NCBI RefSeq assembly: GCF_001610895.1
Contig: NZ_CP011273.1
Coordinates: 3,038,001-3,102,000, forward strand
Direction: 5' to 3'
Source: Planctomyces sp. SH-PL62
GTDB lineage: Bacteria > Planctomycetota > Planctomycetia > Isosphaerales > Isosphaeraceae
Length of the DNA stretch: 64,000 bases
Of the stretch, positions 15,396 to 56,339 are shown in pieces. How positions within the stretch are numbered: the stretch's first letter is position 1; each line of letters opens with the position of its first letter. Made by a program: the position numbers and the translations under genes. The notes under the pieces are model-generated. The model saw only the letters and a list, made by a program, of their open reading frames with translations, did no database searches and was not told the DNA's origin.

Positions 15396-16754
15396 TTACT
15401 GAGGCTTGGTGGCGGAGCCGATCCCACGCCGATCGCGAAGGCTGGATCCGCGGCCGGCGGGAGCCGCCTTGGGCGTCTCGGCCTTGGCCGCGTCGGCCGT
15501 CGGGGCCGTGGCGTTCGCGCCGCCCGCCGGGGCCGCCGCCGGAGCACCGGGGCCGCCAGGACCGCCAGGACCAGCGGGGCCGCCAGGGCCGGCGAACATC
15601 CCGCGCATCATGGCGTTGGTGTCGAACTTCTGGCCGAGCATCTGCTTGTACTTGGACGCCTGGCCGCGGTCGAGGGCCTTGAAGACGCGGGAGTAGCTCT
15701 GGTCCCTCAGCTCGTTCTCCCGCTCGCCCATCTTGTCGATCTGGGACTTGTTCTCCGGCTGTTCCATGAACTTGCGCATGGCGTCGCGGTCGAAGTTCGG
15801 GCGTCCCCCGCGACCGTTGCCGCCGTCCGCGTTCGGGGCCTGGGGCTGGCTCTCGCGGAACTTCTGGAAGATCGTCCGCATCGCCTCGCCGTTCGACCGG
15901 CGCGCCTCGTTGGCCTTGCGCTCGACGTCCTGGATCTCGGCGTACTGTTCCTCGGTGATGCCGAGCTTCTGGGCGAGTTCCTGGTTTCGGAGGACGGCGA
16001 ACGGCCCCTCCATCTGGAGCGAGATCTCGCGGAGCCGCTTCACCTGCTTGGCGTCGAGGATCTTGCCGAGGGCGGCCTCGTCGTCCTTGCGCAGCTTCTG
16101 CATGGTCTGCATCATCTCGTTCATGCCCTGCATGCGCTGGAAGTTGCGCTGTTGTTGCTCCAGGGTCTGCTGCTGGTTCCGCAACTGCTGCTGAATGACG
16201 GCGGGGTCGACGCCCTGCTGCTGCTGGGGCGCGTAGGGCGAGTCGCCGAATCCCCCTAACGACTGGCCGAAGCCGCCATAGCCGCCGTCCTGCGGATAGG
16301 AGACGCGGCGGATCACGCCGGTCGTCGCGCGGGACGGGGTGACGGCGCCCTGCTGGTTCTGCCGGTTCTGCTGACGCTGCTGCCGCTCCCGAAGCTGCTG
16401 CATCGCCTTGTCTCGCCTGGCGCGAGATTCCTCGGAGAGCTTCTTGATCTTGTCCTTCTGCTCATCGGTGAGCTTCAGCTCCTCCTGAACCGGCCCACGC
16501 GTGGCGAGATCCACGAGCGAACCACCGCCGAAGCCGCCGAAGCCGCCCGGCCCGCCGCGACCGAATCCACCGCCGCCCCGACCCCCCGGGCCTCCCGGTC
16601 CGCCAGGTCCTCCCGGTCCGCCAGGCCCGCCGCCGAAGCCGCCGCGGCCTCCGCGACCGACCCGGCCCTGATCCTGTGCCATCGCGGAAACGGAAGCGAT
16701 CGCCATGGCGAAAGCGATCCCTCCCACGATCACGCCGAGACGACGTCGCGTCAT
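15396..16754 (-). CDS. Exported Gly/Pro-rich LTXXQ-type protein
   Basis: A 452-residue exported protein. A signal peptide (about 1-27, ends S-A-M-A) is followed by a collagen-like Gly-Pro-Gly tract (about 33-78). Then comes the motif ELKLTDEQKDKIKKLSEE (around 90-107), an LTXXQ-type segment as in CpxP/Spy-like proteins. The middle (150-240) is Gln-rich with long helices, and a second helical module (KLGITEEQYAEIQDVERKA) resembles the first. The tail is again Gly/Ala/Pro-rich. A periplasmic chaperone or stress role is possible by analogy only. I chose the ATG at 16754, with GAGGAG eight bases upstream. It ends at the strong hairpin 15281-15334. Confidence 0.8.
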   Translation of the reverse strand: MTRRRLGVIVGGIAFAMAIASVSAMAQDQGRVGRGGRGGFGGGPGGPGGPGGPGGPGGRGGGGFGRGGPGGFGGFGGGSLVDLATRGPVQEELKLTDEQKDKIKKLSEESRARRDKAMQQLRERQQRQQNRQNQQGAVTPSRATTGVIRRVSYPQDGGYGGFGQSLGGFGDSPYAPQQQQGVDPAVIQQQLRNQQQTLEQQQRNFQRMQGMNEMMQTMQKLRKDDEAALGKILDAKQVKRLREISLQMEGPFAVLRNQELAQKLGITEEQYAEIQDVERKANEARRSNGEAMRTIFQKFRESQPQAPNADGGNGRGGRPNFDRDAMRKFMEQPENKSQIDKMGERENELRDQSYSRVFKALDRGQASKYKQMLGQKFDTNAMMRGMFAGPGGPAGPGGPGGPGAPAAAPAGGANATAPTADAAKAETPKAAPAGRGSSLRDRRGIGSATKPQ

Positions 16755-16951: not shown

Positions 16952-17719
16952 TCAGGGCCGGGCCGACCAGAGCCAGGCGGCCAGGCCGATCATGGCGGTG
17001 AGGGTGCTCAACCGCACCAGGGCCCGGTACAGGGCGAAGCGGCGGGGAGTGAGGAAGGTGGAGCCCTCGCGCGGCCCCCCCTCGACGGCCAGGCTCAGGC
17101 CCTCGGTCTGGCGTTCGAAGCCGGCGAGGACGGACATGCCGACCAGGTGGACGAGCCAGAGGATCAGGAAGCCGACCCCCTGATCCAGCCAGGCGCGCCA
17201 GGGAATGGGGGGGATGCCGGGCTTCCACCAGGCGGGGGTGCTCAGGGGGACGTCGCTCTGGTAGACCACCAGGCGAAGCGCCCCGACCGCGATCGCCTCG
17301 CCGTCGCTGACCCGCAGGGCCAGTTCGAGCGGCTTCGGCGTCCCGGCCGTCGGCGTCCCTTTCAACAGGCCCGAATCGCCGTCGAACGCCAGCCCCTCGG
17401 GCAACGGGCCGTCGAGCGACCAGTGCAACGGCCCGCGACCGCCGTCGGCGGCCAGCGCGATGGTGTAGGGCCGACCGGCGATCGCCTCGGGGAGTTCCGA
17501 GGGCGTCGCGATCCGAAGCGGCCGGGCCTCGGCCGCAGCCTGCGGCCCCGCCGACCCCACGTCCACGGCCTTGGGCAAGAGGGCCATGATGACCATGGTC
17601 AGCAGCAGGATGAAGAGCAGGGCGCCGGTGAGCTTGGTCACCACGACGGCGACGAACGAATCCTCGCCCGAGCCGCCGAATTCCAGGCCGCCGCCGCCGC
17701 CTCGCCGATTCCGTCGCAT
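16952..17719 (-). CDS. Three-TM protein with periplasmic Ig-like (He_PIG) domain, partner of the MotA/ExbB-like gene
   Basis: A 255-residue membrane protein. Residues 1-21 are basic/Gly-rich and end in G-S-G-E-D-S; TM1 is about 22-48. An extracytoplasmic Ig-like domain follows (about 70-165), with the He_PIG pattern WSLDGPLPEGLAFDGDSGLL-K-G-T-P. Two further TM helices are at about 178-200 and 230-251, with a short basic loop between them. TM1 and its acidic approach resemble the single TM of ExbD/MotB-type stators, although the usual Asp inside the helix is absent (E19/D20 lie just before it). It begins 55 bases after the stop of the MotA/ExbB-like gene on the same strand, so the two are probably one operon. 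The function is unknown. Confidence 0.75.
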   Translation of the reverse strand: MRRNRRGGGGGLEFGGSGEDSFVAVVVTKLTGALLFILLLTMVIMALLPKAVDVGSAGPQAAAEARPLRIATPSELPEAIAGRPYTIALAADGGRGPLHWSLDGPLPEGLAFDGDSGLLKGTPTAGTPKPLELALRVSDGEAIAVGALRLVVYQSDVPLSTPAWWKPGIPPIPWRAWLDQGVGFLILWLVHLVGMSVLAGFERQTEGLSLAVEGGPREGSTFLTPRRFALYRALVRLSTLTAMIGLAAWLWSARP

Positions 17720-17774
17720 GGATCGCGCCTCCCGCCCTCTCAGCTTCAGTCAGGATCGACCGGAGAAACCGTCC

Positions 17775-19127
17775 TCAGGCGGCGCGGGTCGAATCGCCGC
17801 CGCCGCGCCCGCTCCGCTCGTCGAACATCCGCTTGACGATGTTGCGGTAGAGGGAGTTGCCCTGCTCGATGCTGACGTTGATCAGGTCGAGGGCGTCCTT
17901 CAGGTTGCTCATGGTCTTGGCGAGCTGCTCCTGGGTCGTCCGGCTCGACTTCTCGTAGGCCGAGGCCCACGACGAGGCCATGCTCTCGACGGCCGCCGTG
18001 TTGCGGTCGAGCGCCCGCTTGATCTCCTGGAGCTGGGGATCGGGCTCGTCGCTCCGGGTGAGCGAATCCTCGATCCGCGAGAGCGACGCCGCCGACCGCC
18101 GGGAAGACTCGCCGAACGTCTCCAGGACCTCGAACTCGCCGCCGATCCGGCCGATCGCGTCGGCCCCCTCGCGGAAGGCCGCCAGCGACTCCGGCAGCCG
18201 GTCGACGGCCTTCGCAAGCTGCTCCACCGGGGCGTTCAGGCTCAGGCCGATCTTCTCGGCCTCCCCCTGCAAGGCCCTCGCGGCGGGCTCCAGGATCGTC
18301 GCCAACTCGCTCCGGAGTCGATCGACGTGGGGGGCGATCAGGTCGTCGAGCCGGTCGCCCAGCGGGTCGCGGGCGGCCACGCCGGGGAGGACGTTCTCCA
18401 CCACCCAGCGATCCACCCGCGCCAGGTGCCGCTCCGCCAGGCGATAGACCAGGGTCTGCACCAGCATCAGCGCGGCGCTCAGGAACAGGGCCAGCAACGT
18501 GCTGTCGAAGGCGATCTGCAAGGCCGAGGTCACGCCGGTCAGGTTCCCCAGGAACGCGTCCAGATCCTTGACCAGGGGGAGGACCTTGCTGATGTTCATG
18601 AGGGCCTTCGAGATGCCCTCGACCGTGCCGATGAAGCCGATCACCGGCAGGAGATAGAGGATGTACCGCGTGAGCGTGAACCGCCCGGCGGCGTGTTCCT
18701 GGTCCAGCCCCGAGGCCTCGCGGTTCACCTCCATGAGCTGGCTCGCCGAACCCGAGCGGGACTCGCGGGCGTGCCCGGCGAGCTGACGGACCCGCACGGG
18801 CAAGACCCGGCCGTCGGCCGCGATCGCCTGGGCCTCCGCCGTCGGCGCTTCCGTCGCGTTGCTTCGAAGCATCGCGGCGACGTATCGGAGTAACGCGGGA
18901 GCCTCGTCGAACGCCCGTTCATCCCGCCAGAGCCGGCGAAGCTCGACGGCGAGCGTGGCCACCGCCCAGAAGTAGATGCCGGTCCCGACGTACTGCTCCC
19001 AACCTCGCTCGAACATGAGCGTGGGGTCGAAGATCATCAGGGCGATCGGGAACAGGATCGCCAGCGTCAACATCGCCGACGCCGCAACATAGGCCGCCTT
19101 CGGAGAATCCGACGATTCCTTCGCCAT
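17775..19127 (-). CDS. MotA/TolQ/ExbB-like channel protein with long C-terminal coiled coil
   Basis: A 450-residue membrane protein. TM helices are at about 12-33 and 48-62, with a cytoplasmic segment between 65 and 150. The MotA/ExbB core then follows: L-P-V-I-G-F-I-G-T-V-E-G-I-S (160-173, TM3) and TSALQIAFDSTLLALFLSAA (200-219, TM4). Residues 235-450 form a long helical tail without TM. The core motifs are those of proton-channel motor proteins, which normally pair with a one-TM ExbD/MotB/TolR subunit. Here the neighbour is instead the three-TM Ig-like protein at 16952. I chose the start at 19127, which leaves out an upstream Arg-rich stretch. The cargo or force target of the tail is unknown. 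Confidence 0.85.
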   Translation of the reverse strand: MAKESSDSPKAAYVAASAMLTLAILFPIALMIFDPTLMFERGWEQYVGTGIYFWAVATLAVELRRLWRDERAFDEAPALLRYVAAMLRSNATEAPTAEAQAIAADGRVLPVRVRQLAGHARESRSGSASQLMEVNREASGLDQEHAAGRFTLTRYILYLLPVIGFIGTVEGISKALMNISKVLPLVKDLDAFLGNLTGVTSALQIAFDSTLLALFLSAALMLVQTLVYRLAERHLARVDRWVVENVLPGVAARDPLGDRLDDLIAPHVDRLRSELATILEPAARALQGEAEKIGLSLNAPVEQLAKAVDRLPESLAAFREGADAIGRIGGEFEVLETFGESSRRSAASLSRIEDSLTRSDEPDPQLQEIKRALDRNTAAVESMASSWASAYEKSSRTTQEQLAKTMSNLKDALDLINVSIEQGNSLYRNIVKRMFDERSGRGGGDSTRAA

Positions 19128-49671: not shown

Positions 49672-49932
49672 ATGTTTCCACTCCTGAAGCGTTCCGCGAC
49701 GCCGTCGGACTCCGTCGACGGCGACGCGAGGAAACATGGTTTCGGCCGATTCGTCGCCGCCGAAGTGGGGGCGACGATGGCCGAGTACGGCCTCATGCTC
49801 GGCCTGATCGCCGCCGTCCTGATCCTGACCGTGAGCCAGATCGGGACCGTTACGGCCGCGAAGCTTCAACTGGCGGTGGCCGGATTCGCCGACGCCGGGC
49901 CCGCCGACGCTGGGCCGCCGATGCCCCAGTGA
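49672..49932 (+). CDS. Second Flp-like pilin with extended leader and tail
   Basis: An 86-residue Flp-like pilin. The leader is longer than usual (about 33 residues), ending A-A-E-V-G-A-T-M-A-E-Y-G-L-M with the processing site at G/A and the E-Y pair; then the helix LGLIAAVLILTVSQIGTVTA. The end is an Ala/Pro/Asp-rich tail (FADAGPADAGPPMPQ) absent from the first pilin. It may be a minor or tip subunit, or a pilin for other conditions. It lies 100 bases after flp and 49 bases before the prepilin peptidase start. A shorter start would remove part of the leader, but no good ribosome site supports one. Confidence 0.82.
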   Translation: MFPLLKRSATPSDSVDGDARKHGFGRFVAAEVGATMAEYGLMLGLIAAVLILTVSQIGTVTAAKLQLAVAGFADAGPADAGPPMPQ

Positions 49933-49981
49933 TTGAGCGGGCCGACTTCTCGCAGGTGACGTGGAAGGGAGCGACGGAGCC

Positions 49982-50647
49982 GTGGACCGCTGGCAAATGC
50001 TGTTCCTGTCGTCGGCGGCGGTCGCGACCTTGATCGCCGCCGCGACCGACCTCTGGAAGTTCAAGGTGTACAACGCCCTGACGTTCCCGGCGCTGCTGGG
50101 GGGGCTGGCCGCGTCGGCGTGGGTCGGCGGCTGGTCGGGGCTGGCGACGAGCGGGCTCGGGGCCCTGACCGGCTTCGGGCTGCTCATCGTCTTCTTCGCG
50201 ATGGGGGGCGTGGGGGCGGGGGACGTCAAGCTGCTGACGGCCCTCGGCGCCTGGCTCGGGCCGTCGCTGACGTTCCAGGTCTTCCTCGCCGCGTCGCTCG
50301 CGGCGGGGCTCTACGCCATAGTCCTGACGGTCCTGAGCGGCGGCCTGGCCGCGACGGCCGTCGACCTGCTGTTCCTGATCCTGCGCCTCCGCCGGGGCGA
50401 CCTCGTCGCGAAGGGAGGCCCCTCGATCCGCGAGGAGGCCGCCCGGCCCGACCGCCGCCGTCGGCTGGTGCCGTTCGCCGCCATGACCTGCCTGGGGTTC
50501 TTCGCGACGGTCGCCTGGCGCGCCGCCGATCTCGATGAATTCCGCACCCCGTTCGAGGCCCCGCCGACGATCGCGACCGCCCCGGCGTCGCGCGTCGGCG
50601 TCGCGGCCGTCCTCCCATCGCCATTCCTTGAAGGGACCACGCCATGA
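49982..50647 (+). CDS. tadV: Prepilin peptidase TadV/CpaA
   Basis: A 221-residue membrane aspartic protease of the A24 family. The two catalytic aspartates are D23 (in A-A-A-T-D-L-W) and D81 of the G78-A-G-D81 motif (G-G-V-G-A-G-D-V-K-L-L). About six TM helices precede a charged C-terminal tail. It should process the Flp pilins and TadE-like proteins, and perhaps DUF1559 leaders. The likely start is the GTG at 49982 (MDRWQM...), with AGGGAG ten bases upstream; a GTG at 49961 would add seven residues. The end overlaps the cpaB-like start by ATGA (50644-50647). The C-terminal extension (about residue 140 onwards) is longer than in typical TadV. Confidence 0.9.
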   Translation: MDRWQMLFLSSAAVATLIAAATDLWKFKVYNALTFPALLGGLAASAWVGGWSGLATSGLGALTGFGLLIVFFAMGGVGAGDVKLLTALGAWLGPSLTFQVFLAASLAAGLYAIVLTVLSGGLAATAVDLLFLILRLRRGDLVAKGGPSIREEAARPDRRRRLVPFAAMTCLGFFATVAWRAADLDEFRTPFEAPPTIATAPASRVGVAAVLPSPFLEGTTP

Positions 50648-51579
50648 GGCCGCAGACCCTGGCCGTCGTGTTGCTGGCCCTGGGCAGCGGCCTGGCCGCC
50701 GTCTGGGGCGTCCGGTCGTCCCTGAAGAAGCCGGCCGCCGAGGAGACCGTCCCCGCGGTCGTCGCCAAGCTCGACCTCAGGCGCGACGAGGTCATCGACG
50801 CGGCGGCGGTCGAGATCCGAAACGTCCCCAAGAGCCAGGCGCCCGCCGGCGGCCTCGCCGCCATCGAGGAGGCGGAGGGGCGGACCACCTACATCCCGAT
50901 GCTCCCCGGCGAGTTCGTCATCGAGCCCAAGCTGCTCCCCAAGGGGAGCCGCGCGGGGCTGGCGTCGATGATCAAGCCGGGGATGCGGGCCTTCACGATC
51001 ACGACGCCCACCTTCTCGTCGAGCCTCGCCGGCTTCCTGATGCCGGGGAACCGGGTGGACGTCCTGCTGACCCTCACCCCGTCCGGCTCCTCCTCGACCG
51101 AGGACGCGACGACCTCGACCCTCCTCCAGAACGTCGAGCTGTTGGCCGTGCATACGATGGTCGACGCCCCGGCCGACAACCGGGCCAACCCCACCGAGGC
51201 CCGGTCGGTGACCCTGTTGGTGACGCCTAAGCAGGCCTCGATCCTGGACCTCGCGCAGAACAAGGGGACGCTCCACCTCTCCTTGCGCAACAGCAAGGAC
51301 GAGACGGACGCGGAGGAGACGACCGCGACGCTGGCCGACCTGGGCCTGATCCGCCCGACTCCGCCGACGCTCGCCGAGGCGGCGCCCCCGCCCCCGCCGC
51401 CCCCGGCCCCTGATCCGGAGCCGGTCCCGGTGGTGCTCTCAATCCGAACCTTGCGAGGCACTTCCGCCGGCCGCGACGAGATCACCGTGCTCCGCCGAGG
51501 CCGGCCCCCCGCGACGGGCGCGGGTGTGACGGGCCCGCCGACCGTCGCCACCCCCGCCCCCCCGCGTCGATCGCGTTGA
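50644..51579 (+). CDS. cpaB: Tad pilus protein RcpC/CpaB
   Basis: A 311-residue periplasmic protein. An N-terminal hydrophobic anchor (about 5-23) is followed by a SAF-like domain (VVAKLDLRRDEVIDAAAVEI region, then YIPMLPGEFVIEPKLLP) and the RcpC half (MRAFTITTPTFSSSLAGFLM-P-G-N-R-V-D-V-L-L-T and VTLLVTPKQASILDLAQNKG). A Pro-rich stretch (about 240-260) leads to a basic disordered tail. CpaB proteins help position the secretin and pilus channel. The gene overlaps tadV by ATGA. The C-terminal tail after about residue 235 is specific to this group; otherwise normal. Confidence 0.92.
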   Translation: MRPQTLAVVLLALGSGLAAVWGVRSSLKKPAAEETVPAVVAKLDLRRDEVIDAAAVEIRNVPKSQAPAGGLAAIEEAEGRTTYIPMLPGEFVIEPKLLPKGSRAGLASMIKPGMRAFTITTPTFSSSLAGFLMPGNRVDVLLTLTPSGSSSTEDATTSTLLQNVELLAVHTMVDAPADNRANPTEARSVTLLVTPKQASILDLAQNKGTLHLSLRNSKDETDAEETTATLADLGLIRPTPPTLAEAAPPPPPPPAPDPEPVPVVLSIRTLRGTSAGRDEITVLRRGRPPATGAGVTGPPTVATPAPPRRSR

Positions 51580-51637
51580 ACGCGCGGCTCGCGCCGGACG
51601 TTCCAGGGAATGCCGCTCTTGATGTAAGGGATTAATC

Positions 51638-52822
51638 ATGCCTTGCTTCATCGTCGCCGACGACGAGTCGATCGCCTCCCGGATCCGGTCTGTACTGGCC
51701 TTCCACAAGCGGGACTGCCCGAAGACGAACGTCCTGCCGACCGACCAGGCGGCGGGGCGGCTGGGCCGCGAGCCGGCCGTCGGGTTGGTGGTCGCGGTCC
51801 TGCCGCCCGACCCCGCGACGGCGCTCGAGCTGCTGGCGCGGCTGGCGCCGATGGCCGACGGCGGGCTGCTGGCGGTCGGCCCGACCTCGGACGCCCGGCT
51901 CGTCGTGCAGGCCCTGCGGACCGGCGTCCGCGACTACCTGGACAGGTCCGACCTGGAGGCGGAGCTCGACGCGGCGGTCAAGCGGATGGCGGCGTCGACC
52001 CACGCCGGGGCGTCGCACGGCCGGGTGGTCGCCGTGCTGGCGCCCAGCGGCGGCTCGGGGTCGAGCACGATCGCCGCCAACCTCGCCTCGGCGATGGCGG
52101 CGGAGCACGGGTCGGCCGGGCTGTTCGACCTCAAGCTGGAGGCGGGCGACCTCGCGGCCCTGCTGGACCTCAAGCCGACGTACACCCTGGCCGACCTCTG
52201 CAAGACGGCCGCCCCGTTCGACAAGGTGATGCTCGAACGCTCGTTCGCCCGCCACGAGTCGGGCGTGAGCCTGCTCGCCGCCCCCCGGCGGCTGGCCGAT
52301 GCGCCCCTGGTCCGCCCGGAAGGGGTGGCCCGCGCGCTCGACCTGGCGCGATCGCTCTTCCCGGCCGTGGTGGTCGACGTCGACCACCACTTCCGCGACG
52401 AGCAGCTCGTGGCGATCCGCGACGCCGACGTCCTGGCGGTCGTCTTCCGCCTGGACTTCAACTCGCTGCGGAACGTCCACCGGACGATGGAGCACCTGGG
52501 CCGCCTTGGCCTGGCCGGCGACCGGGTCCGCCTGGTCGTCAATCGCTCCGGCCAGCCCGGCGAGGTGCCCCACGCCAAGGCGGAAGAGGCCCTGGGGGGC
52601 GTCATCGCGTTTTCGGTCCCGGAAGACGCCCGGACGGTGGCGCGGGCCAACAACAACGGCGTCCCCTTCGTGATCGAGGCCCCGTCCTCGAAGGTGGCGA
52701 GGAGCCTGGTCCAGCTCGCCAGGCTGCTGGTCCCGCCGTCGGCGCATGCCGGGGCGTCGGCTTCCGCCGAATCGAGGCCCGGTTGGCGGCCCTGGCGGAA
52801 GCGAAACGTCGCCGCGCTTTAG
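51638..52822 (+). CDS. tadZ: TadZ/CpaE-like localisation ATPase with altered P-loop
   Basis: A 394-residue cytoplasmic protein with an N-terminal receiver-like domain (about 1-115: VVAVLPPDPATALELLARLA region) and a MinD/ParA-like domain (about 128-375). The P-loop is A-P-S-G-G-S-G-S-S-T (135-144); both Lys residues of the ParA deviant Walker A box (K-G-G-x-G-K) are replaced by Ser, while D-L-K-L-E-A-G-D and V-V-V-D-V-D-H-H follow in their usual places. CpaE/TadZ directs Tad pilus assembly to a cell site; reduced or absent ATP hydrolysis is suspected here. TAAGGG lies seven bases before the ATG. The next gene is cpaF. Confidence 0.9.
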   Translation: MPCFIVADDESIASRIRSVLAFHKRDCPKTNVLPTDQAAGRLGREPAVGLVVAVLPPDPATALELLARLAPMADGGLLAVGPTSDARLVVQALRTGVRDYLDRSDLEAELDAAVKRMAASTHAGASHGRVVAVLAPSGGSGSSTIAANLASAMAAEHGSAGLFDLKLEAGDLAALLDLKPTYTLADLCKTAAPFDKVMLERSFARHESGVSLLAAPRRLADAPLVRPEGVARALDLARSLFPAVVVDVDHHFRDEQLVAIRDADVLAVVFRLDFNSLRNVHRTMEHLGRLGLAGDRVRLVVNRSGQPGEVPHAKAEEALGGVIAFSVPEDARTVARANNNGVPFVIEAPSSKVARSLVQLARLLVPPSAHAGASASAESRPGWRPWRKRNVAAL

Positions 52823-52929
52823 GTCCGACGACGCCCCGAAACGCGTCCTAGGGTTGGGTTGGGCCTCGGTTCGAGTCCCCGGCGGGCGGCGCGACCGCGG
52901 CCCTCGGCATCCCGGAACGGAAGAATCCG

Positions 52930-54351
52930 ATGAGCATGACTGACGTGCATCTGGACCGGCGGGGCTCCTCCCCCCCCTCGGCGGCGGAGCGGCACCTGCG
53001 GATCAAGAAAGACCTGCATGAGAAGCTGATCTCCGAGCTGGAGCTCTCGTCGATCGGCTCGATGAGCCAGGACGAGATCCGCGAGGAGATCCGCCGAGGG
53101 GCCGAGCAGCTCTGCATGCGGCACGACGACCTGCTGAGCCTCCCCGAGCGGGAGCGGCTGATCGAGGAGGTGCTCGACGAGACCTTCGGCATCGGCCCGC
53201 TCGAGGGCCTGATGCGCGACGCGACCGTCTCCGACATCCTGGTCAACGGCCCCAAGGTGGTCTACGTGGAGCGTCGGGGCCGCCTGGAGCGGACCGACGT
53301 CGTCTTCAACGACGAGAAGCACCTCCAGGAGATCGTCCGGCGGATCGTGGGCCGGGTCGGCCGGCGGATCGACGAGACCTCCCCCCTGTGCGACGCCCGG
53401 CTCCCGGACGGCTCGCGCGTCAACGCGGTGATCCCCCCCCTGGCGCTCGACGGCAGCCTGCTGTCGATCCGGCGCGCGGGGAAGTCGCCGCTCCTGACGC
53501 ACGACTTGGTCGAGAAGCGGGCCATCACGCAGGAGATGGTCGACTTCCTGGCCGCCTGCATCAGGGGGCGGGTCAACATGGTCATCTCGGGGGGGACCGG
53601 CTCCGGCAAGACGACGCTCCTGAACGCGCTCTCGGCGTTCATCCCCGAGGACGAGCGTGTGGTGACGATCGAGGACGCGGCCGAGCTGCGGCTCCAGCAG
53701 CCGCACGTCGTCCGGATGGAGACCCGGCCGCCGAACATCGAGGGGGAGGGGGCCATCTCCACGCGAGACCTCGTCAAGAACTCGTTGCGGATGCGGCCCG
53801 AGCGGATCGTCGTCGGCGAGTGCCGGGGCTCCGAGACGCTGGACATGCTCCAGGCCATGAACACCGGCCACGACGGCTCCATGACCACGATCCACGCCAA
53901 CGACACCCGCGACGCGATCGGCCGTATGGAGATGATGGTCGGCATGGCGGGCTTCGACCTGCCGATCTGGATCATCCGCCGCCAGATCGCCTCGGCCGTG
54001 CAGATCCTCGTCCAGGCGTCGCGGCTCTCCGGGGGCGTGCGGCGGATCATGAAGATCTCGGAGATCGTCGGCATGGAGGAGGACGTGGTCAGCATGCAGG
54101 ACCTCTTCGTCTTCAAGCAGACGGGGGTCGACGAGGACCGGGCCGCGCAGGGCTACCACTTCTGCACCGGGGTCCGGCCCAAGTGCCTGGAGCGGCTGGA
54201 GGAGGCGGGCATGAAGCTCCCGCCCGAGATGTTCGAGAGCCGGATCCTGACGTCGAAGCCCCTGCCGGAGCCCCCGCCCCCCGATGAGGACCCGCGCGGC
54301 GGGGAGCGGCTCTGGGGGATGTTCGGCCGGGGTCGCGGGGAGGGGGCGTGA
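52930..54351 (+). CDS. tadA: Tad pilus ATPase CpaF/TadA
   Basis: A 473-residue hexameric traffic ATPase of the GspE/VirB11 family. The N-terminal domain includes EVLDETFGIGPLEGLMRD and VSDILVNGPKVVYVERRG. The core has Walker A G221-G-T-G-S-G-K227-T-T, the Asp box (ERVVTIEDAAELRLQQ), Walker B (RPERIVVGECRGSETLDMLQ) and the His box (HDGSMTTIHANDTRDAI). All key residues are intact. The C-terminal 35 residues are Pro/Gly/Arg-rich. It powers pilin extrusion with TadB and TadC, whose genes follow with overlapping or near-adjacent frames. Start choice: ATG at 52930; a second ATG is six bases on. Confidence 0.95.
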   Translation: MSMTDVHLDRRGSSPPSAAERHLRIKKDLHEKLISELELSSIGSMSQDEIREEIRRGAEQLCMRHDDLLSLPERERLIEEVLDETFGIGPLEGLMRDATVSDILVNGPKVVYVERRGRLERTDVVFNDEKHLQEIVRRIVGRVGRRIDETSPLCDARLPDGSRVNAVIPPLALDGSLLSIRRAGKSPLLTHDLVEKRAITQEMVDFLAACIRGRVNMVISGGTGSGKTTLLNALSAFIPEDERVVTIEDAAELRLQQPHVVRMETRPPNIEGEGAISTRDLVKNSLRMRPERIVVGECRGSETLDMLQAMNTGHDGSMTTIHANDTRDAIGRMEMMVGMAGFDLPIWIIRRQIASAVQILVQASRLSGGVRRIMKISEIVGMEEDVVSMQDLFVFKQTGVDEDRAAQGYHFCTGVRPKCLERLEEAGMKLPPEMFESRILTSKPLPEPPPPDEDPRGGERLWGMFGRGRGEGA

Positions 54352-55325
54352 TGAACGACGTGATCGTCCTGGGGCTGGCGGCGGCGTCGGCCGTCGCGTT
54401 CGTGGTCGCGGTGTTCCAGGTCGCCTCGGACCTGTTCCTCCGCGACCGCGCGCGGATCAGCGACCGGGTCGACGTGGAGTTCCTCAAGAAGAAGGCGGCG
54501 GCGTCGGCCGCGAAGGCGAAGAAGGCCTCGCTGTTCAAGAACCTGGACCAGATGGACGCCGCGGTCCGGGCCGGCTCGGGCTCGCCGACCTGGAGCCAGG
54601 CGTTCGAGTCGATGGTGGAGCAGTCCGGGCTGGAGGTCACGCCGGGGCGGCTGCTGTCGATCGCCGGGGGGGCCGCCGCGGCTTTGGGCCTCGCGGCGTT
54701 CGCCGCCCGGGGCCGCCCCCTCGACGCGGCGCTCGCGGCGCTGCTGGGGGCCGTCGCGCCGATCTTCTACGTCAAGAAGGTGCGCGACGCCCGCATCGAG
54801 CGGCTCCGTTCCCAGCTCCCGGAGGCCTTCGAGCTGATGGCTCGGGTGGTCCGGGCCGGGCAGAGCCTGGGGCAGGCGGTGCTCGGCGTGGCCCAGGAAT
54901 TCCCGCAGCCGATCTCGGCGGAGTTCGCCTACTGCTACGAGCAGCAGAACCTCGGGCTCTCGCCGGAGGTCACGTTCCGCGAGCTCACCCGGCGGACCGG
55001 GATCGTGGAGCTGAAGATCTTCGTCCTGGCCGTCCTGGTGCAGCAGCAGACCGGCGGCAACCTCGCCGAGATGCTCCTGAAGCTCTCCGCGGTGGTCCGC
55101 GAGCGCTACCGGATCCGGGGGGCGGTGCAGGCCCTAACCGCCGAGGGGCGGATGCAGGGCTGGGTCCTGGCGGGGATGCCGCCGGTGATGCTCCTGGTCC
55201 TCCTGCTGATGAACCGCGACTACGCGATGATCCTGTTCGAACACTCCGAGATCCTCATGGGGACCTTCGCCATCGAGATGGTGGGCGTCCTCTGGATCCG
55301 CAAGATCGTCAACTTCGACTTCTGA
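54351..55325 (+). CDS. tadB: Tad pilus platform protein TadB
   Basis: A 324-residue inner-membrane protein of the GspF/TadB family. TM helices are near 2-22, about 100-118 and two at the C-terminus (YRIRGAVQALTAEGRMQGWV precedes TM3; LLMNRDYAMILFEHSEILMG leads to TM4). The conserved GspF domain is around 150-260, with RLRSQLPEAFELMARVVRAG-Q-S-L and GNLAEMLLKLSAVVRERYRI. It forms the assembly platform with TadC. It starts ATG at 54351, overlapping the cpaF stop (TGATG); a GTG one codon earlier is possible. The stop codon is part of a TGATCC tandem run leading to tadC. Confidence 0.93.
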   Translation: MNDVIVLGLAAASAVAFVVAVFQVASDLFLRDRARISDRVDVEFLKKKAAASAAKAKKASLFKNLDQMDAAVRAGSGSPTWSQAFESMVEQSGLEVTPGRLLSIAGGAAAALGLAAFAARGRPLDAALAALLGAVAPIFYVKKVRDARIERLRSQLPEAFELMARVVRAGQSLGQAVLGVAQEFPQPISAEFAYCYEQQNLGLSPEVTFRELTRRTGIVELKIFVLAVLVQQQTGGNLAEMLLKLSAVVRERYRIRGAVQALTAEGRMQGWVLAGMPPVMLLVLLLMNRDYAMILFEHSEILMGTFAIEMVGVLWIRKIVNFDF

Positions 55326-55346
55326 TCCTGATCCTGATCCTGATCC
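55323..55346. repeat. Four tandem TGATCC units between tadB and tadC
   Basis: TGATCC is repeated four times without change, and the first unit contains the tadB stop codon. Then CGATCG and the tadC ribosome site (GAGGAG) follow. Slippage here would alter only the spacing between the two genes. Confidence 0.85.
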
Positions 55347-55364
55347 CGATCGCGAGGAGCGGCC

Positions 55365-56339
55365 ATGGACGCGGATTCGGTCATCCTGTTCGTCGTCTTC
55401 GCGGCGACCGTCGGCCTGGCGACGCTCGCCGGCCTGGCGTTGTCGGGGAAGGGGCGGCGGCTCTCGGACCGGCTCGACGAGCTGGCCGGCAAGGCCGAGC
55501 GCGCGGAGCGGCCGGAGTCGGTCGCCAAGCTGGCGCGGGCGGCCCTGCCGAAGCTCGGCAAGGTGATCGTGCCCGATAACGAGGTCGAGCGCAACCGCCT
55601 CTCCACGAGGCTGGTGCAGGCGGGGCTCTACCACCGCCAGGCGCTCCACGTCTTCCTGGGCGTCAAGCTGTCGATCATGCTGGCCGCCCTGGTGCTGGGG
55701 GCGGGGCTGACGCTGACCGGCGCGGCCCCGCCGGCCTATACGATGGGCGCGGCGCTGGGCCTGTTCATCGCCGGCATGATCGGCCCGAGCTTCTGGCTGG
55801 ACCGCCGCCGCGGCAAGCGCCAGCTCAAGCTCCGCCGGGCCTTGCCCGACGCCCTCGACGTCTTGATCATCTGCCTGGAGGGGGGGCTGAGCTTCCAGAG
55901 CTCCCTCAAGCGGGTCGCCGAGGAGATCGTCTCGGCCCACCCGCTGCTGGGCTATGAGCTGCGGATCGCCGACCGCGAGATCCAGCTCGGCCGCTCGCCG
56001 GCCGAGGCACTCCTGCACTTCGCCCAGCGCAGCGACCTGGACGAGGCGCTGTCGCTCTCCACGGTCGTCGGCCAGTCGGAGCGGTTCGGGGCCAGCCTGG
56101 TCAAGAGCCTGAAGACCCACTCCGAGACCATCCGCGAGCGCCGCAAGGTGCAGGCCGAGGAGCGGGCGCAGAAGGCGGCGACCAAGATGCTCTTCCCCAC
56201 CCTGTTCTGCATCTTCCCGGCCATCTTCGTGATCCTGCTGGCGCCGGCCGCCTTCCAGGTCATGAAGTCGATGGGGAGCCAGGGGGACGTCAAGGGCGGG
56301 GCGGGCGCGTCGGCCCCGTCAATCGCCGCGCGTCGCTGA
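55365..56339 (+). CDS. tadC: Tad pilus platform protein TadC
   Basis: A 324-residue GspF/TadC-type membrane protein. TM1 is at about 5-26; central TMs are at about 97-118 and 122-142. The GspF domain includes RRGKRQLKLRRALPDALDVL, then LIICLEGGLSFQSSLKRVAE and SLSTVVGQSERFGASLVKSL. The last TM is MLFPTLFCIFPAIFVILLAP (about 280-300). It completes the platform with TadB. The start ATG at 55365 has GAGGAG upstream. It is the last gene of the plus-strand Tad block: the next gene, a TadD-like lipoprotein, is on the other strand with its stop eight bases away. Confidence 0.93.
   Translation: MDADSVILFVVFAATVGLATLAGLALSGKGRRLSDRLDELAGKAERAERPESVAKLARAALPKLGKVIVPDNEVERNRLSTRLVQAGLYHRQALHVFLGVKLSIMLAALVLGAGLTLTGAAPPAYTMGAALGLFIAGMIGPSFWLDRRRGKRQLKLRRALPDALDVLIICLEGGLSFQSSLKRVAEEIVSAHPLLGYELRIADREIQLGRSPAEALLHFAQRSDLDEALSLSTVVGQSERFGASLVKSLKTHSETIRERRKVQAEERAQKAATKMLFPTLFCIFPAIFVILLAPAAFQVMKSMGSQGDVKGGAGASAPSIAARR

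Follow-up and report, generated by a model that had tools for sequence, protein, structure and literature searches.

An Asp in the axle helix of MotB, ExbD, TolR and ZorB binds the ion, and to our knowledge this residue is regarded as the heart of every motor of the MotB/ExbD/TolR/ZorB kind. GldM contains Ig-like folds. In TolQ the axle Asp is received by a polar ring of the residues T145 and T178 (PMC12583513), and ZorB retains its Asp (PMC11890865). In GldL the acid (E49) is on the ring protein and not on the axle helix (PMC8986121); the ring proteins GldL and PorL have a long cytoplasmic tail (PMC8986121, PMC9389320), and the turnstile model of 5:2 motors allows the ion site on either part (PMC9389320). 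In TolQ-vWA pairs the axle helix carries an outer domain other than ExbD, and neither tolR nor exbD lies beside them (PMC12204202).

The window analysed here, a stretch of 64,000 nucleotides from Planctomyces sp. SH-PL62 (contig NZ_CP011273.1, positions 3,038,001 to 3,102,000), carries a gene pair that resembles these systems in part, with the following features:

17775..19127, - strand: gene for a MotA/TolQ/ExbB-like channel (ring) protein of 450 aa, with a core of 4 TM helices and a cytoplasmic coiled-coil tail of ~200 aa
18432..18677, - strand: pore helices TM3-TM4 (residues 151-232), with T168 and T210 invariant, E170 clade-specific, and an AFDST motif with D208
18618..18620, - strand: codon (GAG) of E170, Glu in 48/48 Isosphaeraceae rows (some genomes contributing more than one row) and an acid in 0/69 other planctomycete relatives
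17835..17954, - strand: C-terminal end of the tail (residues 392-431), conserved in sequence, the mid-tail being variable
16952..17719, - strand: gene for the partner (putative axle) of 255 aa, with TM1, a He_PIG Ig domain, TM2 and TM3
17573..17683, - strand: nearly frozen TM1 segment (residues 13-49), with E19-D20, A24/V25 at the canonical Asp site, and K29
17264..17524, - strand: He_PIG Ig-like domain (~residues 66-152), from Pfam, AlphaFold2 and structure comparison
16964..17200, - strand: two C-terminal TM helices (residues 174-252), from the ORF translation and AlphaFold2

The pair shares with TolQR, ExbBD and MotAB the channel fold, the pore-helix motif, a conserved Thr in both pore helices, and a putative axle TM1 with a cytoplasmic N-terminus. 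Unlike in those systems, the axle here is Asp-less, an Ig domain replaces the ExbD/OmpA-like domain, two extra TMs are present, and the ring protein carries E170 and a long tail. By sequence alone, the pair is like GldLM and PorLM in having an acid on the ring (E170), none at the axle site and a long tail on the ring protein, whereas GldL has two TM helices and lacks clear sequence homology, and the partner here has three TMs; no type IX secretion genes were recognised beside the pair, and no Gld match appeared in the Pfam or NCBIfam scans. TolQ-vWA transpore-helix pairs likewise combine the axle helix with a new outer domain, but their axles keep the Asp and form heterologous pairs, in contrast to the single gene, Ig domain and Asp-less helix seen here. 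Like the ZorAB proteins of Zorya, the channel joins a MotA-like core to a long coiled-coil tail, and it gives weak ZorA profile matches (E 0.0025). A comparison of the tail with ZorA had been proposed by a sequence-only reading of this DNA; ZorA profiles reached at most 14.6 bits (PADLOC) and 9.2 bits against a 100-bit cut-off (NCBIfam), no ZorB profile matched, and neither ZorC nor ZorD was recognised beside the pair. Zorya also differs in that ZorB has a presumed peptidoglycan-binding domain, whereas the pair described here is found in nearly every genome of its family.

The MotA/TolQ/ExbB core and long cytoplasmic helical tail that had been read from the letters at 17775 were borne out. The reading frame starts with an ATG at 19127 and stops at 17775, and its product matched Pfam MotA_ExbB (PF01618) at 25.9 bits, above the curated cut-off of 22.9, and contains the motif GFIGTV...AFDST. 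The AlphaFold2 model (mean pLDDT 82, pTM 0.58) consists of a 4-TM MotA-like core, a short cytoplasmic domain and a long helical tail. Structure comparison of the core returned only TolQ, ExbB, ZorAB and MotAB/PomAB at ranks 1-29 (Z 13.7 to 10.2), led by TolQ 8vlw (Z 13.7, rmsd 3.6, 205 aligned); since unrelated helical bundles are intermixed with the rows at Z ~10, the fold argument rests on the TolQ/ExbB lead together with the sequence motif. Searched against solved structures, the full-length channel gave matches swamped by its tail, and the core alone gave only weak matches to ZorA (E 0.079) and TolQ. Matches of the tail to apolipoproteins and designed helices among solved structures were set aside as low-complexity helix and uninformative, and a WXG100 match in the tail was rejected as coiled-coil resemblance (NCBIfam 16.7 vs a cut-off of 44.85).

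The partner gene follows the channel gene after a gap of 55 nt. A codon-usage gene caller recovered both; the genes upstream of them lie on the + strand and the one downstream on the - strand. Pfam matched He_PIG in the partner at 30.3 bits (curated cut-off 24) and showed no other domain, so that no ExbD or OmpA-like periplasmic domain was found, and the NCBIfam, PADLOC and Pfam scans gave no ExbD, MotB or ZorB match. In the AlphaFold2 model (pLDDT 78) a helix at 19-51 is followed by a beta sandwich at ~66-152 (pLDDT 93-96) and by helices at 174-211 and 225-252; the best structural matches of the sandwich were Ig domains of putative Bacteroides alpha-galactosidases and of the staphylococcal adhesin SraP (Z 10.0-11.5). 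Both the Ig-like He_PIG domain and the two additional TM helices proposed earlier are therefore present. The TM1 segment (residues 13-49, EFGGSGEDSFVAVVVTKLTGALLFILLLTMVIMAL) is 96.9% identical to the window's protein across 42 orthologues, compared with 52-57% in other parts, and four-fold degenerate sites differ at comparable rates, 0.43 in this segment vs 0.51-0.53 elsewhere in the partner. Judged from these alignments, a TM1 protein identity of 97% despite 43% of four-fold sites differing is a real test against chance, and near-identity of TM1 is as would be expected for a helix packed within a ring. In 43/43 partner orthologues Ala24/Val25 stand in place of the canonical axle Asp, and Lys29 is invariant. 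The claim that the first helix is ExbD-like and lacks the acidic residue thus stands for the canonical site, but TM1 is not free of acids: Asp20 is invariant and Glu19 nearly so, both at the helix start and outside the canonical Asp position.

The sequence-only reading had allowed for a standard ExbD/MotB gene elsewhere in the genome as the true partner. The window's genome contains six MotA_ExbB loci and seven ExbD genes, and all seven adjoin the four other ExbB genes; no leftover ExbD-like gene is present that could serve as a hidden partner. Neither kind of axle helix seen in related planctomycete systems, Asp-bearing or Asp-less, was present in this genome at E 0.5, and no second Asp-bearing axle was found either near the pair or elsewhere in the genome. 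In genus g23 the same axle profile did recover unlinked copies, with E values of 1e-17 or better. In that genus (G087 C1:571704, G274 C1:7113142 and others) the Asp-bearing second axle of the FPFLS system is apparently encoded far from its channel. A separate observation concerns locus L005 (G000 C1:2359092), where another ExbB-like gene of the window's genome has no ExbD neighbour and the downstream gene encodes a long proline-rich membrane protein.

Searched family-wide, the channel and the partner each occur in 43/45 Isosphaerales genomes, the same 43, and the two genomes without the pair are fragmented assemblies. In 34 of the 43 the two genes are immediate neighbours on the same strand; in 7 they lie ~2 to 15 kb apart, and in 2 they are on different contigs. 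The expectation that the pair would be conserved across Isosphaeraceae was thereby borne out, and partner homologues were not, as had been entertained, usually encoded without the channel gene. Because both genes are near-universal, co-occurrence is weak evidence by itself, and adjacency and the frozen TM1 carry more weight for the pairing. A scan with the partner alignment across 84,980 species, each represented by one genome, yielded 33 loci; those with informative titles are Isosphaeraceae (Paludisphaera, Singulisphaera acidiphila, Tautonia, Aquisphaera), and the unit is restricted to this family, being found nowhere else in the scan. Three MAG records titled Candidatus Kuenenia stuttgartiensis (L269, L270, L273) carry the Isosphaeraceae gene; they appear to match genomes grouped with the window's family, and the titles are probably wrong.

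Within the pore helices, T168 and T210 are Thr in 117/117 aligned sequences and are taken as equivalents of the TolQ polar ring residues T145 and T178, the T210-T178 match being tentative. Position 170, two residues past T168, is I, L, M, V, R, Q or H in the 69 relatives and never acidic, and is Y, V, W or A in the other four ExbB proteins of the window's genome. E170 is the sole charged TM residue that is invariant in Isosphaeraceae and without counterpart in the relatives, although its invariance alone says little in a channel core that hardly varies across the family. These comparisons suggest that E170 may replace the lost axle Asp; being two residues from T168, it may also point away from the axle. 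D208 is invariant in Isosphaeraceae and is D, N, E, H or another residue in relatives. A simple swap of the acid onto D208 was considered and rejected, as AF[DENH]TT also occurs where the axle keeps its Asp.

TM1 of the partner aligns with axle helices of related systems, e.g., EFGSDSFLDIVANIVGILIILIV. Against a profile of Asp-bearing axle helices it scored a modest 5.6 bits, a value reached by 15/3000 shuffles. In the motif alignment (DSF..x..TG) DSF falls on D20 and the Asp of FLD on Ala24 (Val25 if a one-residue gap is placed otherwise); Lys29 has no counterpart in the relatives. TM1 also aligns with the Ig axles of two planctomycete genomes outside Isosphaeraceae, G095 (SIFIDPLFGAFGAFLFIFLM) and G590 (TSFLDVLANTIGGLAFLLVL). 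As here, a MotA-like channel gene is followed in both by a gene for TM1 and He_PIG domains, that of G095 also with a C-terminal TM; unlike here, both axles keep the Asp and have at least three He_PIG (Ig) domains, the G590 protein being interrupted by a contig end. Given these TM1 alignments, a rebuilt axle of the ExbD/MotB type is the better description of the partner, and its earlier description as standing in place of ExbD/MotB gives way in this respect.

Queries with the Ig axle in 198 genomes of G095's class, and with the channel in 161 genomes of its order and 392 of the phylum, together added only G590 to the Ig-axle systems among the top matches listed. In the channel tree a long stem leads to a clade of Isosphaeraceae alone (100/100), and the other Planctomycetia channel types branch elsewhere; a clade with G095 and G590 has a p-AU of 0.47, and their common origin is neither shown nor rejected. 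Other Planctomycetia typically have a channel, an Asp-less axle (FPFLS/FPFLA, with a long coiled coil) and an Asp-bearing second axle (DSLLD/DSFLD), the second sometimes unlinked; short-tailed channels accompany FQD-type axles. Across loci L074-L101 and L152-L191, long coiled-coil tails of the channel tend to accompany an Asp-less first axle and short tails the FQD type. Three-gene channel systems with two unlike axles, one Asp-less and one Asp-bearing, were also seen at L192, L194, L200, L203-L205 and L207-L210. The three-gene organisation in many Planctomycetia suggests a heterodimeric axle with a single ion site. The Asp-less axles (FPFLS/FPFLA) were rejected as a parent state for the partner, as many of these systems also carry an Asp-bearing second axle and the Isosphaeraceae channel branches apart from them.

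Downstream of the pair lies a further gene:

15396..16754, - strand: gene for an exported LTXXQ (Spy/CpxP-like) protein, from Pfam, with family-wide linkage to the Ig partner

In the window this Pfam match clears its cut-off only narrowly (24.5 vs 24.3). An LTXXQ gene is present within the locus in 23/34 species loci and immediately after the partner in 20, often with another LTXXQ gene following, and it still accompanies the partner at loci from which the channel gene has moved. The gene pair proposed from the letters was confirmed, with the correction that a third conserved gene follows it. Elsewhere in the window, positions 49672-56339 hold an apparent Flp/Tad pilus cluster, with a Flp-like pilin at 49672 and then CpaB/CpaF/TadB-like genes, a call made from gene order and sequences only.

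We consider the chances about evenly balanced that the pair is a variant 5:2 motor of the MotA/TolQ/ExbB type, with its acid on the ring and an Ig-bearing, membrane-anchored axle. Five channel copies would form a ring in the inner membrane, with TM1 of two partner copies as the axle inside; since only TM1 fits in the ring, TM2 and TM3 would lie outside with the Ig domain bridging over, and the axle would reach outward through the Ig domain while being pinned in the membrane by its own TM2-TM3 and not by peptidoglycan. With the ion-binding Asp of the axle lost, the protonatable group would now be Glu170 on the ring, beside the conserved Thr ring. As TM1 runs from inside to outside, K29 would lie ~1.5 turns higher than the former Asp position, with E170 ~half a turn higher than T168, and these heights make an E170-K29 contact plausible; Glu170 would be about level with the invariant axle Lys29, much like in GldLM with GldL Glu49. 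Ion flow would then alter the contacts between ring and axle, and the movement may be passed to the cytoplasmic coiled-coil tail or, via the Ig domain, to the LTXXQ neighbour. Assembly in a 5:2 stoichiometry, ion coupling and the direction of force are all putative, as is the force-generating or signalling role proposed at the outset. The fuller account, in which the acid shifted to the ring (Ile/Leu/Met to Glu170) from an axle that exchanged its Asp for Ala/Val and gained a Lys, the anchored three-TM axle bears the Ig domain and the LTXXQ protein is the client, is possible, and we hold it only tentatively.

The loss of the Asp may instead be a loss of coupling, the complex being derived from a motor but no longer using ions and acting as a scaffold, static or switching, for sensing the envelope and signalling to the cytoplasm through the tail. 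The missing Asp in 43/43 orthologues, the conserved end of the cytoplasmic tail, extra TM helices that could pin the axle, and an exported Spy-like gene that stays linked to the Ig partner even with the channel gene elsewhere are consistent with such a scaffold. We nevertheless regard it as rather unlikely, because the conducting Thr residues stay invariant and a dead channel would have no need of a buried Glu that is new in this clade only. An ion-driven motor could also couple through another acid, with two candidates: ring residue D208, and axle residue D20, the homologue of the leading Asp in DSFLD. Although D20 is invariant, E19 nearly so, and the DSF motif of Asp-bearing axles aligns at D20, this residue lies near the helix start and precedes the canonical site by four to five residues, and its equivalent in relatives coexists with the canonical Asp; D208, invariant in the family, varies (D, N, E, H and others) in relatives, and coupling through either acid seems improbable. 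That the partner is an unrelated membrane protein merely encoded beside a channel that uses one of the genome's ExbD proteins would agree with the lack of direct adjacency in 9/43 genomes, but is made very improbable by the occurrence of both genes in the same 43 genomes, by a frozen and axle-like TM1, and by the placement of every ExbD gene next to another ExbB gene.

Since almost all Isosphaeraceae have the unit, the cultured Singulisphaera acidiphila among them, it probably serves a core envelope task, of which we found no published description. For the motor variant with its acid on the ring, a clade in which the axle Asp was lost, the Thr ring kept and one ring Glu gained provides a clean test of ion-site placement, and the transfer of the acid, if true, would be a natural charge-swap experiment on the mechanism of 5:2 motors.
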